From Mesostigma viride (lineage: Eukaryota > Streptophyta > Mesostigmatophyceae > Mesostigmatales > Mesostigmataceae), in the NCBI GenBank assembly GCA_009746045.1, contig RPFO01000213.1, positions 9,977,858 through 10,041,857 on the forward strand: a DNA stretch of 64,000 nucleotides. The letters are read 5' to 3'. Within the stretch, counting starts at the first letter, position 1; every line of letters begins with the position of its first letter. Shown in pieces: positions 1,006 to 63,335 of the stretch. A program made the translations under genes and the position numbers. Below the pieces are notes generated by a model, which saw only the letters and a program-made list of their open reading frames with translations, had not been told where the DNA came from and searched no databases.

Positions 1006-4000
1006 TCAGCTAGTATGTACGTACTTGTTGACATAGAAGACCTTTGCCCCCTTCCTGGCCGCCTCCAGCAGCCGCATGCGGTCGGATACGGCTTCGTGCT
1101 CCTCAGGGAACCACACCCCTGGCTGGGTCTCCCCCCGCAGAACCGCGTCCGCGAACGCAGCGACCGAGTGGCCGACGCACCTGGGGGGAGCGGGAGAGCG
1201 AGCGCGTGAGATGGGAGGGAAAAACGATGGGAAGGGACAACAAGAAGAAGAAGGTATGGGGCCGCCGCATTATAACGCAAGGTTGGGATGTGATGGGAAG
1301 GAAGGAGAGGTGGGTCCGCGTCAGAAAGCAAGGCCCTACCACACCTGTGTGGTCCATGAACAAGGCAAACGGTATTACGGTGTGTTAGAGAGTATAGATA
1401 GCTGTAGACTTGTTACAAGGTCAAGTGCGAATAGAACTGGGCCTGCTCTTCCAACAAATTTCCGGTGGCAATCAAACAGTTGTCGATTATTGGATTCGAG
1501 CGCTATCCGTGCGTGGATGGCTAGCATGGATCACAAGGAAACAACAGGATGAGTGATCCGCACGGGCGAGCTCAAGACCGTAGATAGCTACTGCTTGAAA
1601 CCATTAGGCTAACAAACGATCGTGAAGGGTTCGGAAGGCTTACTTGGACACCCATGCGTGGGCGAAAAGAACGTAGGTAGCTACTGTTTGAAACCATAAG
1701 GCTAGTTACTTGTGAAGGGTTAGGAAGGCTTACTTGGACACCCGTGCGTGGGCGTAAAGAACGTCGGTAGCTACTGTTTGAAACCATCAGGCCAGTTACT
1801 TGTGAAGGCTTAGGAAGGCTTACTTGGACAGCCGTGCGTGGGCGTAAAGACCCGATGCCTTTGTCCCATTCGCGAACGCCACGTCTACCTGCGCAGGGTG
1901 CACACAAACAAGCAACCATCAAGCACACAACACGCTTGCAGTCGCCATCGTCAGGCTGCTGCATGTCTGAAGGAGCGCATCAGGGGATGTGCCAAATGTT
2001 TGCCACAGCCAGGAGCAATTCGGTTCACACAAAAAACTCTGCAACATCAGCCTCAAAATGAGCGAGTGGACCTCACCATCTCATCAGCAACCAAATGAAT
2101 GGCCATTCACCGGGATGGCCATTCACTTGGTTGCTGATTAGATGCCCATGCCTTATTTCAGAGTGCATAACCCCATCCGCACTAGCTGATGGCTACCTGT
2201 ATCAACCATCGATACTAACTTGCCACCCACCCAGATGGCCATCCCCTCGCCCATGAAGTGCGACCTGATAGCTAGACACATCAAGTGTGCTGCTTGCATA
2301 ATTGATAGGAAGTGGCCACTCACCCGGATGGCCATGCCCTCGCCCACGATCTTATCCACCAATCGCACGAAAGGGTCCGACAGCCGCACCAGGCCCTCCA
2401 CCTTGGTGCGGTCTTGCAGGAAGCCCTGAGGGTGCAGCATGAGCCATTCGTGAAATCATTCCACAGGAGAACAGGAGTTTATGATGAGGAAAACGCGCAC
2501 TGTAGGAAAGGGGTATGTCCAGTACATGAAATCAGGAACGCCAAAGCATGCCCTATGCGCAAACTTATCAACAGCTACGCCCGCCATCAACAGTTGTACT
2601 TGTGGCATTGGGCGGCGGACATGTGGATAACAGCAGGCTCGAGCTACCATGGTCCTCCAGATTCTTCCGGATTTCTGGCCTGCGCTGGTTCTCTCCTTGA
2701 TATCTTATAATGGCTATTGCCTCCAGGAAGGTGCCTGCCCTCTGTACAGGGATTACAACCACTGTCAAAATTTCCGTGATATCCCGGTGCAGGCACTTGT
2801 CGAGACAACTTGCTGATCAAGGTAGCTATTTGTTGAGACAACTAGCTGATCAAGGTAGCTATTTGTTGAGACAACTAGCTGATCAAGGTAGCTATTTGTT
2901 GGGACAACTAGCTGATCAAGGTAGCTATTTGTTGAGACAACTAGCTGATCAAGGTAGCTATTTGTTGAGACAACTAGCTGATCAAGATAGCTATTTGTTG
3001 AGACAACTAGCTGATCAAGGTAGCTATTTGTTGAGTCAACTAGCTGATCAAGGGAGCTATTTGTTGAGACAACTAGCTGATCAAGGTAGCTGAAAAAGCT
3101 AGCTGATCAAGGTAGCCATGTGTTGAAAAAACTAGCTAATCAAGGTAGAGCTACAATGGCGTGCAAAGGTGCTGAGCGTTACGTTACGTCTTTACGTTAC
3201 GGGCGTAAACCTTTGCGTCGATTTTACGTTTTATGTCACCCTTTTTTCCATTTTACGTGTTTACGTTACGTCAACTCCCTGACCCCAGTGACAGTACGGG
3301 TTGTATTGATCTCTAGCTCATTTTTTTGTATACATCTCGTGCCCATTTTTTTTAATCGATCTCCTGCCCTCCAAAACCACCCTCCGCGAAAGTGACCCGT
3401 TATTTCGGGATGGGGCCACTCGGGATCTCCAAGAGCAAATCAACTCCATAAGGCTTCTACCTTACTTTAGCTTATCCTCCTTTCCCGCGTCCCATGTGTG
3501 TATGGCTGCGTATCCAGCATGCATGTCCTGATACGCAAACATGGCACCAATATAACACGGCTCTAACCATGTGATACTACTACCAGTGCTGTGACTTATG
3601 AGTGTCTAGTACAACACCAGCACCGCGAAATCCTGGTAAGATACTCCTACAAGACACATTATCCTGGTATACTACTATAATGATCCTGGTATACTCTGAT
3701 CAGGCACTCAGGGCCGGGCCGCGGAAAACGCGGAAAAACGCGATCTGCAAATGAATCCGACCGAAATCGAACTGGGGACCTCTCGCACCAACTTTCGCTG
3801 ACTAGAGGACGGACGTCTCCGGTTACCATGGCATCGCCAACTTACACCTACAGTCATCCGCAAAAGTTCTCCTGTCCGGGGAGTGATGCAAGCCTCTGGT
3901 ATACTACTATAATGTAATTATATATGATACCTAGGATGATAGCAGCATAATACAATAGCAGAATATTACAATAGCAGCATAATAGAATAGCAGCATACTA

Positions 4001-62200: not shown

Positions 62201-63335
62201 GCGTACGAGCAGGTGCGTGGGCCGTCCGCCGCCCCCCTCGTTCCGGTTTTCCACTGTCCCTGCATGCATCCATTTGGTGTCTTGTTGTGAACGAGTACTC
62301 AACAAGACTGTTAGACGACGGCACAAGCTGTTAGTGGTATGTTCCTTCTTTTGTGTGTGTGTGTGTGTGCAACATTTTCCTAATCCTTGCCTGGAGAAAC
62401 CGCAGTGTGTGTGTATGTGTGTGTTTACACATTCCTTACCCATGCTTCTTGTTCCTTGCCCACTTGCTCCCATCCATTACACCTCCTGTGCCCTCTGCCC
62501 CCCCCTCGCTCCCTGCCCCCACCGCCTTCTGCCCACCGGCCTACCCTGGGCCATGGATACCCCGTTGCTTTGGTGCCCTTTGCCGACATCACTATGGCCC
62601 AACACCCGGCACCGGCACACATGACCTACCCACATGACCACAATGCACCCGGCACATGCCAACGGCTAGTACAGGGACGCCTCGGACGCGCCGGGTACAT
62701 GCCTGTATTTATTATATCCTCACACTCGTGCAAAAGACAAGCCTATGTATGTGTATATTCATTGAGAATGATAAATTACGGAGGTGAGATTGGCATGCAA
62801 CATAAGGAAAACTGGCTGTGTATACAAATATATAGTGAGATACTGTACAAGAAGTGTATAGTAGCACTACTAGTCTATTTGTAGTAGTATTCATGCATTT
62901 TTGCATACCTACTCCTCGTTTTTGTGCTCGCCCATGCTCTCGTATTGCTGCACCCACCCGAGACATCCCCATCGCCAGTAGCTGGACATGCTGCTGGCGT
63001 CAGGGCTGCAGGGTAGGTTCCATACAGGTACTCATCAGGCAGGATTAAATAATGAATGAATGAATTTACATTCAGCAGGATACGTTGTCTATTCTCTTCT
63101 ACTACTTTATACTCAAATGTGTGTGCTCTTGTACTGCCATGCCCATCGGACATAACCCGTGCCCAAACCGGCCATTGCCCTTGCCCTTGCCCGACAGTAC
63201 CGCGACATCCTGGTCGCGTCCGGGCTGCAGGACACCCCCCGGCTGGACCTGTTGGCGGGGTCGGTCGCAGGATGCTCCGCAGTGGTGCTCACATACCCCC
63301 TGGACTTGGTGCGGACGAGGCTCGCGGTGCAGCCG
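59259..63335 (+). CDS. Mitochondrial carrier, CoA-transporter type, first four exons (3' end outside window)
   Basis: Exons 59259-59423, 61653-61738, 62146-62212, 63198-63335, with GT-AG introns and phases that fit (152 codons so far). The protein begins [17 protein letters not shown], then [20 protein letters not shown] with the first carrier signature [10 protein letters not shown] (P-x-D/E-x-x-K-x-x-x-Q type). It continues [60 protein letters not shown], and the second repeat [20 protein letters not shown] with [10 protein letters not shown]. The GN-ASV-RIVPYAA-HF-YEQYR and [11 protein letters not shown] strings are typical of the plant COAC1 / animal SLC25A42 and SLC25A16 group, inner-membrane exchangers that import coenzyme A. 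Roughly half the expected length is present; the donor GTATGT at 63336 leads into a repeat-filled intron that runs past the window end. An adenine-nucleotide carrier of the same subfamily is the main alternative. Confidence 0.9.
60105..60360. repeat. Minisatellite CATAGGCAGGCTTTCT, 16 bp unit
   Basis: About 15 copies with variants (CGCATAGGCAGACTTCC). Intron 1 of the carrier gene. Confidence 0.92.
60851..60872 (+). mobile_element. R1 retroelement micro-copy
   Basis: CCTGCGCTGGTTGTCTCCTT, flanked by ATCATG-like repeats (local sequence is ATC-rich, so the duplication is less certain). Confidence 0.45.
61085..61640. repeat. Minisatellite reaching the exon 2 acceptor of the carrier gene, about 55 bp unit
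   Basis: About ten copies of CCACGTACGCCCCCCCGTGG, CCACACAACTGATCATCGGC, GCATCTCGCATGG. The last copy grades into the real 3' splice site (GCATGGCCACCCCCCCCCGT then GGCAACGCGGCAG), so the pyrimidine-rich part of each unit resembles the acceptor region. Confidence 0.9.
62974..63011 (+). repeat. Decayed copy of the start of exon 4 of the carrier gene
   Basis: CAGTAGCTGGACATGCTGCT and GGCGTCAGGGCTGCAG match the exon 4 start CAGTACCGCGACATCCTGGT and CGCGTCCGGGCTGCAG at roughly three of four positions, including the acceptor CAG. A TAG right after the acceptor would stop translation if used. Confidence 0.6.

Follow-up and report, generated by a model that had tools for sequence, protein, structure and literature searches.

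About a third of the introns examined in the streptophyte alga Mesostigma viride carry short, direct copies of their own 5' splice sites (donors). Our material was a 64,000-nucleotide stretch of nuclear DNA from this species (the window), holding an oxidoreductase gene (gene A), a GT29 gene (gene B), a WD40-TPR gene (gene C) and the first exons of a mitochondrial carrier gene (gene D), together with introns of two gene families sampled from the genome. A sequence-only reading of the window had noted that intron repeats copy exon-intron junctions of both kinds in all four genes, and had suggested a genome-wide process. This junction-copy rule is valid for donors and not for 3' splice sites (acceptors): 25 of 72 donors are copied within their own intron against a weighted 6.8% of interior positions (P=3.6e-12), whereas acceptors are copied at the interior rate (5/72 vs 6.8%, P=0.54). 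The data show donors in excess over acceptors, over the weighted interior and over donor-like motifs, and show the orientation of the copies, their distance and the limits of the copied patch. Whether M. viride introns gain short direct local duplications anchored at the 5' splice site is, on this evidence, in our view about evenly balanced between yes and no.

The 30-mers of each junction were searched in its own intron. A copy was a match reaching a score of 13, the same threshold being kept for the unseen gene families, and a close copy one scoring at least 20. The interior was counted raw, with every position included, and weighted, with each repeat family taken as one source. The window contributed 18 complete introns, or 36 junctions, each with controls of 100 dinucleotide shuffles and 100 swapped-intron draws. 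For unseen genes we sampled the genome (439.9 Mb in 2243 contigs), taking introns between adjacent exon hits to kinesins (131 hits) and chaperonins (CCT, 66 hits) spread over many contigs. Hit pairs with adjoining model positions were picked by eye, leaving out pairs with a large model gap and one kinesin pair (C1107). These introns were delimited by GT-AG, reading frame and a splice-site matrix built from the window; a junction score cut-off of 5 retained 29 of 32 kinesin introns (K029_1, K033_1 and K042_3 dropped) and 25 of 28 CCT introns (L048_1, L054_2 and L057_1 dropped). The CCT pair L047_5, which held no candidate intron, and an aldehyde dehydrogenase exon search with only 12 hits stand outside all counts. 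The pooled set is therefore 72 introns (18 window, 29 kinesin and 25 CCT), from which a further carrier intron, D5, is excluded.

Across the pooled set the excess is centred on the donor itself. The offset profile runs, in copied introns out of 72, from 6 at -30 and 14 at -20 to 25 at the donor, then 13 at +10, 9 at +20 and 8 at +60, and the acceptors of the 72 introns have no matching peak. In paired tests the donor prevails over position +30 by 18:3 (P=0.0015), over +40 by 17:5, over +60 by 20:3 and over the acceptor by 23:3 (P=9e-5). Close copies are found for 9/72 donors and 0/72 acceptors (Fisher P=0.003), with a weighted interior of 3.5%; raising the score to at least 25 leaves 6/72, 0/72 and 3.1% respectively. 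An event-level test by BLASTN, in which the source was defined as the 5'-most family member for donors and the 3'-most for acceptors (set before the CCT run), gave 15 donors against 5.1% of the interior (P=3.3e-6) and 5 acceptors against 6.0%, the donor-acceptor contrast over all 72 introns being P=0.028. Swapping introns all but abolishes the matches (12/5112 comparisons for donors, 16/5112 for acceptors), and donor 30-mers that find other introns this rarely are not what an introner or transposon would leave.

The two unseen families carry the same signal, so the claim of a process at junctions beyond the window stood for donors and fell for acceptors. Kinesin donors are copied in 10/29 introns and acceptors in 3/29, with a weighted interior of 6.3% (donor vs acceptor P=0.056); CCT donors are copied in 10/25 (P=3.3e-6 against a weighted interior of 7.0%) and acceptors in 1/25 (donor vs acceptor P=0.005). 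Pooling the families yields 20/54 donors against 4/54 acceptors (Fisher P=3.6e-4). When all 32 kinesin introns are included, 14/64 junctions are copied against 3.8 expected by the weighted count, a figure reached in 0/5000 draws. The clearest kinesin donor copies are K024_2 (48/48 at +70), K034_1 (56/58 at +153), K042_2 (45/46 at +97) and K031_2 (35/35). By the event-level test the 54 unseen introns have 12 copied donors against 5.0% of interior positions (P=1.2e-5) and 4 copied acceptors against 5.8% (P=0.39), and CCT donors taken separately reach 4/25 against 4.1% (P=0.018).

A number of results weigh against this interpretation. On raw counts the interior is copied at 23.0% against 35% of donors, so that the raw excess is small; kinesin junctions counted in this way reach 14/64 against 11.1 expected (P=0.18; P=0.11 to 0.18 at offset 0), and the proposed excess of junctions over random intron 30-mers, upheld for donors by the weighted count, is not clear in these raw numbers. 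In the window, too, raw counting gives no enrichment of junctions over the interior (6 copied, 7.0 expected, P=0.75). At offset 0 the CCT introns alone show no excess of close donor copies (2/25, P=0.2). The event-level test does not set CCT donors (4/25) above acceptors (2/25, P=0.67), and it gives P=0.079 for kinesins (8 donors vs 2 acceptors) and P=0.055 for the unseen sets joined (12 vs 4). Junctions outside gene A are defined by frame or profile hits and splice consensus rather than by transcripts. Finally, that the mechanism is specific to donors, and that acceptor copies are purged, are points that we infer.

Local duplication might instead be blind to position, junction copies merely being easier to detect. 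Because the exon and the 5' splice site are conserved, the source stays unchanged and its copies would be recognizable for longer, while exon-internal and acceptor duplications would be lost to selection. Tandem arrays do occupy 21.5% of window intron sequence, raw interior copying in the window equals junction copying, and of the tiles taken from exon interiors in the four window genes hardly any are copied (1/681). Among seven acceptor copies inspected, six have kept their exon side better than the other, and had the window's copied junctions drifted as their copies did, 1.4 to 4.4 of the 6 would be detectable. A simulation in which tandem duplications fell uniformly, while the exon and the splice motif were kept constant, gave donors a detection advantage over the interior of about 1.5-1.8 (1.52-1.65 at threshold 13, 1.47-1.82 at threshold 20); for acceptors it was 1.41-1.52 at threshold 13. 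Donors nevertheless remain about threefold in excess after correction (25/72 vs ~10%), with P=2e-8 for an allowed advantage of 1.5, 5e-6 for 2.0 and 0.003 for 3.0, and the excess at moderate similarity is thus not explained by ascertainment. The close copies (9/72 donors) are weaker in this respect, and count among the points against us, since their excess falls to P=0.013 at a ratio of 1.5 and P=0.06 at 2.0. Acceptors enjoy the same detection advantage yet show no excess, and neither the near-donor interior nor donor-like motifs are hot. Position-blind duplication therefore appears to us rather unlikely, if well worth keeping in mind.

Two simpler sources of a donor bias were tried and rejected. 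Duplication driven by the motif is contradicted by 235 intronic GTRRG sites, which are copied at a weighted 5.1%, equal to GTY; a hotspot at the 5' end of the intron is contradicted by the zone from +30 to +200, at only 6.2% weighted. There is only a hint of a preference for GTGGG donors, whose introns have copies in 10/19 cases against 15/53 for the others (P=0.09).

The form in which the rule was first proposed, with both junction types seeding minisatellites genome-wide, is largely refuted, and we hold it to be very unlikely. Acceptor copies do exist, at gene A exon 5, GT29 exon 2 and carrier exon 4 in the window and at K035_1 and K040_1 among the kinesins, but 5/72 is the interior rate and 0/72 are close. 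Tandem Repeats Finder (TRF) returned no acceptor-spanning array in 51 introns, the one so labelled being wholly exonic. It reported five donor-spanning arrays in the same introns; their units measure 19-90 bp, and in four of them between 70 and 90.

The anatomy of the donor copies is that of a local event. The nearest copy lies at a median of +79, and 20/25 fall within 150 bp where 6.7 are expected; copies are in the sense orientation only, antisense copies in the own intron numbering 0/72 for donors and 0/72 for acceptors. Patch limits were taken from a hand listing of 24 introns (26 rows, 23 of them scoring at least 13), from which T047_1 and T054_3, two of the 25 positive introns, are missing and to which D5 was added. 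Patches are 18-64 bp long with 82-100% identity, and comprise 7-38 nt of exon (median 19) and 5-37 nt of intron (median 10). Head-to-tail arrays with units of ~10-100 bp are seen in A5, A9, D5, K024_2, K031_2 and T056_1. Extended without gaps, 6/23 hand-listed copies span the whole unit and 17 do not, although K031_2 and K031_3, among those 17, are tandem once gaps are allowed. Among 16 testable cases five are clearly tandem (A9, K024_2, K031_2, K031_3 and T056_1) and two marginally so (T051_1 and K034_1), whereas in the other nine there is no similarity outside the patch, which in 7 of the 9 stops 5-9 nt into the intron. The label of minisatellite consequently fits a part of the copies, many others being short patches, and in several cases unrelated sequence separates source from copy.

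Short patches parted from their source by unrelated sequence are also what repair filler would look like, that is, templated insertions of local sequence of the polymerase-theta type. Such filler is copied in both orientations. Here antisense copies are absent from all 72 introns and minus-strand self-matches amount to 1/148, and a bias towards donors would be left without a reason, which makes filler a highly improbable source.

Selection might alternatively keep the copies as spare or decoy donors, serving as alternative 5' splice sites, in U1 recruitment or in a balance of productive and unproductive splicing. The first copy has a donor strength near that of the real donor in 11/13 introns, GT is kept in 59/68 donor copies, and the nine introns with nothing beyond the patch, mostly ending just inside the intron, would suit such a role. 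On the other side, GT retention at 82-100% patch identity is approximately what neutral decay would give, and GT is gone from copies of gene A exon 6 (GG), WD40-TPR exon 4 (CT) and K029_2. Moreover, in 6/13 introns every open exon frame stops before the copy (true frames not being fixed). The neutral look of the GT loss speaks against maintenance by selection; spare splice sites kept by selection, which the sequence-only reading had offered as a cause, left no positive sign, and we regard this explanation as unlikely.

Returning to donor-anchored duplication, the copied piece would start 7-38 nt within the exon, pass over the donor, take in 5 nt or more of the intron and land mostly less than 150 bp downstream. 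As its exon and intron parts are contiguous, the template would be DNA or unspliced RNA. The authentic donor would remain 5'-most, so the copy would be spliced out with the intron and the protein left unchanged, and some copies would grow into tandem arrays with 26-90-bp units. For gene A the match to a database protein implies splicing at the real donor, with the copy passed over; for the other genes domain continuity, rather than RNA, points the same way. Duplication of an acceptor, on the other hand, would place a second AG upstream of the true one and in competition with it, and selection against it could account for the absence of close acceptor copies, donor copies presumably being tolerated and acceptor copies purged.

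Our leading guess for the cause of the donor excess is a transcription- or splicing-coupled process acting at the donor. More specifically, and only tentatively, such a process may repeatedly place cis, sense-oriented copies of the exon end and donor within the first 40-200 bp of the intron, introns then growing at their donor end and keeping fossils of exon ends. This may be a recurrent route of intron growth and of extra splice sites, affecting about one third of the introns examined. Should donor-anchored, sense-only duplication be true, intron lengthening and the origin of minisatellites become testable, since the process predicts the site of new intron sequence and yields datable exon-end copies. 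It would also supply natural duplicated 5' splice sites for the study of spliceosome choice, and the contrast between donors and acceptors would be a direct readout of splice-site competition under natural selection.

Tandem duplication is accepted as one way in which introns originate (PMC3443670, PMC2891723; this and the following citations refer to the pertinent passages of each paper). In potato RdRp, one tandem duplication over the junction between intron 1 and exon 2 made a new intron (Ma, Lan and Niu 2016, PMC4974935). The M. viride copies resemble it in being local direct duplications over a splice junction that carry exon and intron together, contiguously and beside their source, but potato is a single case of a new intron, whereas here many introns are involved, on the donor side, and an existing intron grows. 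In the Rogers model, tandem duplication of an exonic AGGT segment yields intron gain (PMC3443670). Extra splice-site sequence likewise arises there from local duplication, but it is exon that is duplicated to form a new intron, while the M. viride piece is exon plus intron inside an old one. Our copies lie within introns and carry a second donor, and the exon chain of gene A equals the database protein, so AGGT-type intron gain does not describe them. Coding-sequence tandem duplications with a proto-splice site are described in Drosophila (PMC2891723); these too are local, bear splice sites and are tolerated since the transcript splices around them, although they concern novel intron positions and those passages report no donor-copy enrichment within existing introns. 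For M. viride itself the genome paper gives 1141.9 bp as the mean intron length and counts 30.1% of intron space as repetitive (PMC6947507), the same long repeat-rich introns as here, and its intron and repeat passages contain no splice-junction copies. Single boundary-spanning duplications are therefore already known, and what is described here is a donor-specific, intron-lengthening class, of which a thin search of the open-licence literature found no description.

Within the window, eight of the ten junctions named by the sequence-only reading score above every one of the 100 shuffles and of the 100 swapped-intron draws: the donors of gene A exons 5, 6, 8 and 9, the acceptor of its exon 5, the GT29 exon 2 acceptor, the WD40-TPR exon 4 donor and the acceptor region of carrier exon 2. 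Of the other two, one is borderline (the carrier exon 4 acceptor) and one fails (the gene A exon 4 donor), the score of the latter being reached by 17/100 shuffles and 25/100 swapped introns (a 53-bp array lies 34 bp off). By the swapped-intron comparison 10/36 window junctions are positive and 26 negative, the tenth positive being the exon 7 acceptor, which was outside the earlier list and is abutted by an array without the junction itself. Antisense junction copies in the window are at chance (1/36). The weighted count shows mild enrichment of window junctions (6 vs 2.3 expected, P=0.02; interior 6.9%), and with the raw count given above the window alone leaves the rule undecided.

The strongest window alignments are those of the exon 9, exon 5 and exon 8 donors, the exon 5 acceptor and the GT29 acceptor, and two window arrays have units that bear a junction. 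One is a 90-bp array of 3.0 copies on the minus strand (1574..1850, by TRF), in which the end of exon 9 and its donor form the first unit (GGCTGTCCAA/GTAAGCC, the slash marking the junction); two more donor copies follow, aligning over 81/85 and 71/86 positions across the donor. The other is a minus-strand 26-bp minisatellite of 28.8 copies at 6870-7619 (TRF), the unit bearing the exon 5 donor (GACGAAG/GTGGGTGTTG), which is present in 29 copies with a best match of 18/18. The exon 8 donor has two minus-strand copies, at 2208-2256 (40/49) and 2097-2127 (27/32), equalled in 0/100 shuffles. The exon 6 donor has a degenerate minus-strand copy at 5357-5386 (GCTACCTGCT/GG, the GT being lost) and a second, weaker copy with GA at 5255-5295 (32/41), and the WD40-TPR exon 4 donor a degenerate copy at 34205..34239 (minus strand) in which GT is now CT.

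On the acceptor side, exon 5 of gene A has two degenerate minus-strand copies of its acceptor and exon start within 8118..8467, with junctions at 8140 and 8463 (22/26 and 21/27). Both read TCATG where exon 5 itself reads TCATC, an ATG against an ATC codon, and residue 241 of gene A is a nearly invariant Met among 20 homologues and Ile in Mesostigma. Compared with the ATG form the two copies score 20 and 18 of 23, the maximum of 500 shuffles being 17; further ATG-bearing candidates at 8802 and 8592 were rejected, their scores of 16 and 14 being within the shuffle range. From the shared ATG we read the copies as older than the exon substitution, or else one as copied from the other, and the pair at 8140 and 8463 could serve as dated fossils, kept in the intron, of an ancestral exon codon. 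The GT29 exon 2 acceptor has two upstream copies at 16472..16579 on the plus strand (CCCAG/AACGAGCATC and CCCAG/AACGAGTATC; 0/100 shuffles). A 53-bp array, defined by TRF and alignment, abuts the carrier exon 2 acceptor (61100..61629, plus strand), with homology that stops 7 bp short of the junction and without the AG. In the borderline case, carrier exon 4, the acceptor and the start of the exon are copied at 62973..63012 on the plus strand (32/40), with a score reached by 1/100 shuffles and 0/100 swapped introns.

Proximity of arrays to exon edges is suggestive: 8 of the 28 arrays in the window are no more than 50 bp from a junction, against 2.6 expected (P=0.003, with several thresholds tried, in the window only). 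Their gaps to the junction are 0, 7, 10, 23, 29, 29, 34 and 42 bp, and they include units without a junction.

Gene A, a saccharopine dehydrogenase-like oxidoreductase (PF03435), occupies 1006..13174 on the minus strand. Its ten exons are at 13174-12774, 12588-12482, 11758-11676, 9471-9345, 8018-7839, 5514-5430, 4154-4031, 2425-2324, 1888-1824 and 1180-1006, the last with the stop codon, and we take the exon at 1888-1824 to be exon 9 of the sequence-only reading. The spliced translation is identical to the 482-aa database protein jgi/Mesvir1/12188, which fixes its nine introns. Genes B, C and D were modelled from reading frame and splice consensus, in agreement with Pfam domains. Gene B is sialyltransferase-like (GT29, PF00777), with exons at 14274-14686 and 16661-17285 on the plus strand. 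Gene C lies at 32615..44245 on the minus strand in six exons, with the WD40 domain within its first 706 residues, its exon ends being placed by frame and consensus. The first four exons of the mitochondrial carrier gene D (PF00153) are at 59259-59423, 61653-61738, 62146-62212 and 63198-63335 on the plus strand. A 22-bp array at 63557-64000 reaches past the end of the window in carrier intron 4, and from C1:10041858 the assembly is 5 kb of N.

The carrier intron D5, found by eye beyond the window (locus L003, region 180282-181650), has both junctions copied. The donor belongs to an array of 86-bp units (4.0 copies, 98% match) that also has a 32-bp internal donor repeat; the acceptor is copied over 29/34 positions ~240 bp upstream. 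In the kinesin set, contig C622 was considered as another haplotype of one kinesin gene but proved uninformative, with no substitutions and two 1-base indels relative to C2 apart from the ends. C2:6330520-6334160 and C622:17670-21310 are identical in 3635/3647 columns, also with no substitutions, and their near-identity is probably assembly redundancy.

The window also contains a long terminal repeat (LTR) retrotransposon at 49340-57731, with direct repeats at 49340-49999 and 57078-57731 and a 5-bp flanking repeat, GCGGT. By eye it includes a gag-like open reading frame with a zinc knuckle (53771-55075, minus strand), and the entire element sits in a region with reverse transcriptase like that of long interspersed nuclear elements (LINEs). 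LINE-like reverse-transcriptase reading frames were likewise seen by eye at 19398-22145 and 48269-49264, and a common 3' tail (CATC repeats, GGGAGCACGAGTC, TAAT repeats) near 19938-20045, 29560-29650 and 58110-58240. At 30601-31153 telomere-like CCCTAAA stands beside a 536-bp AGGG array, and with the CCCTAAACCC runs at the end of intron D5 we read these as interstitial telomere-like repeats.

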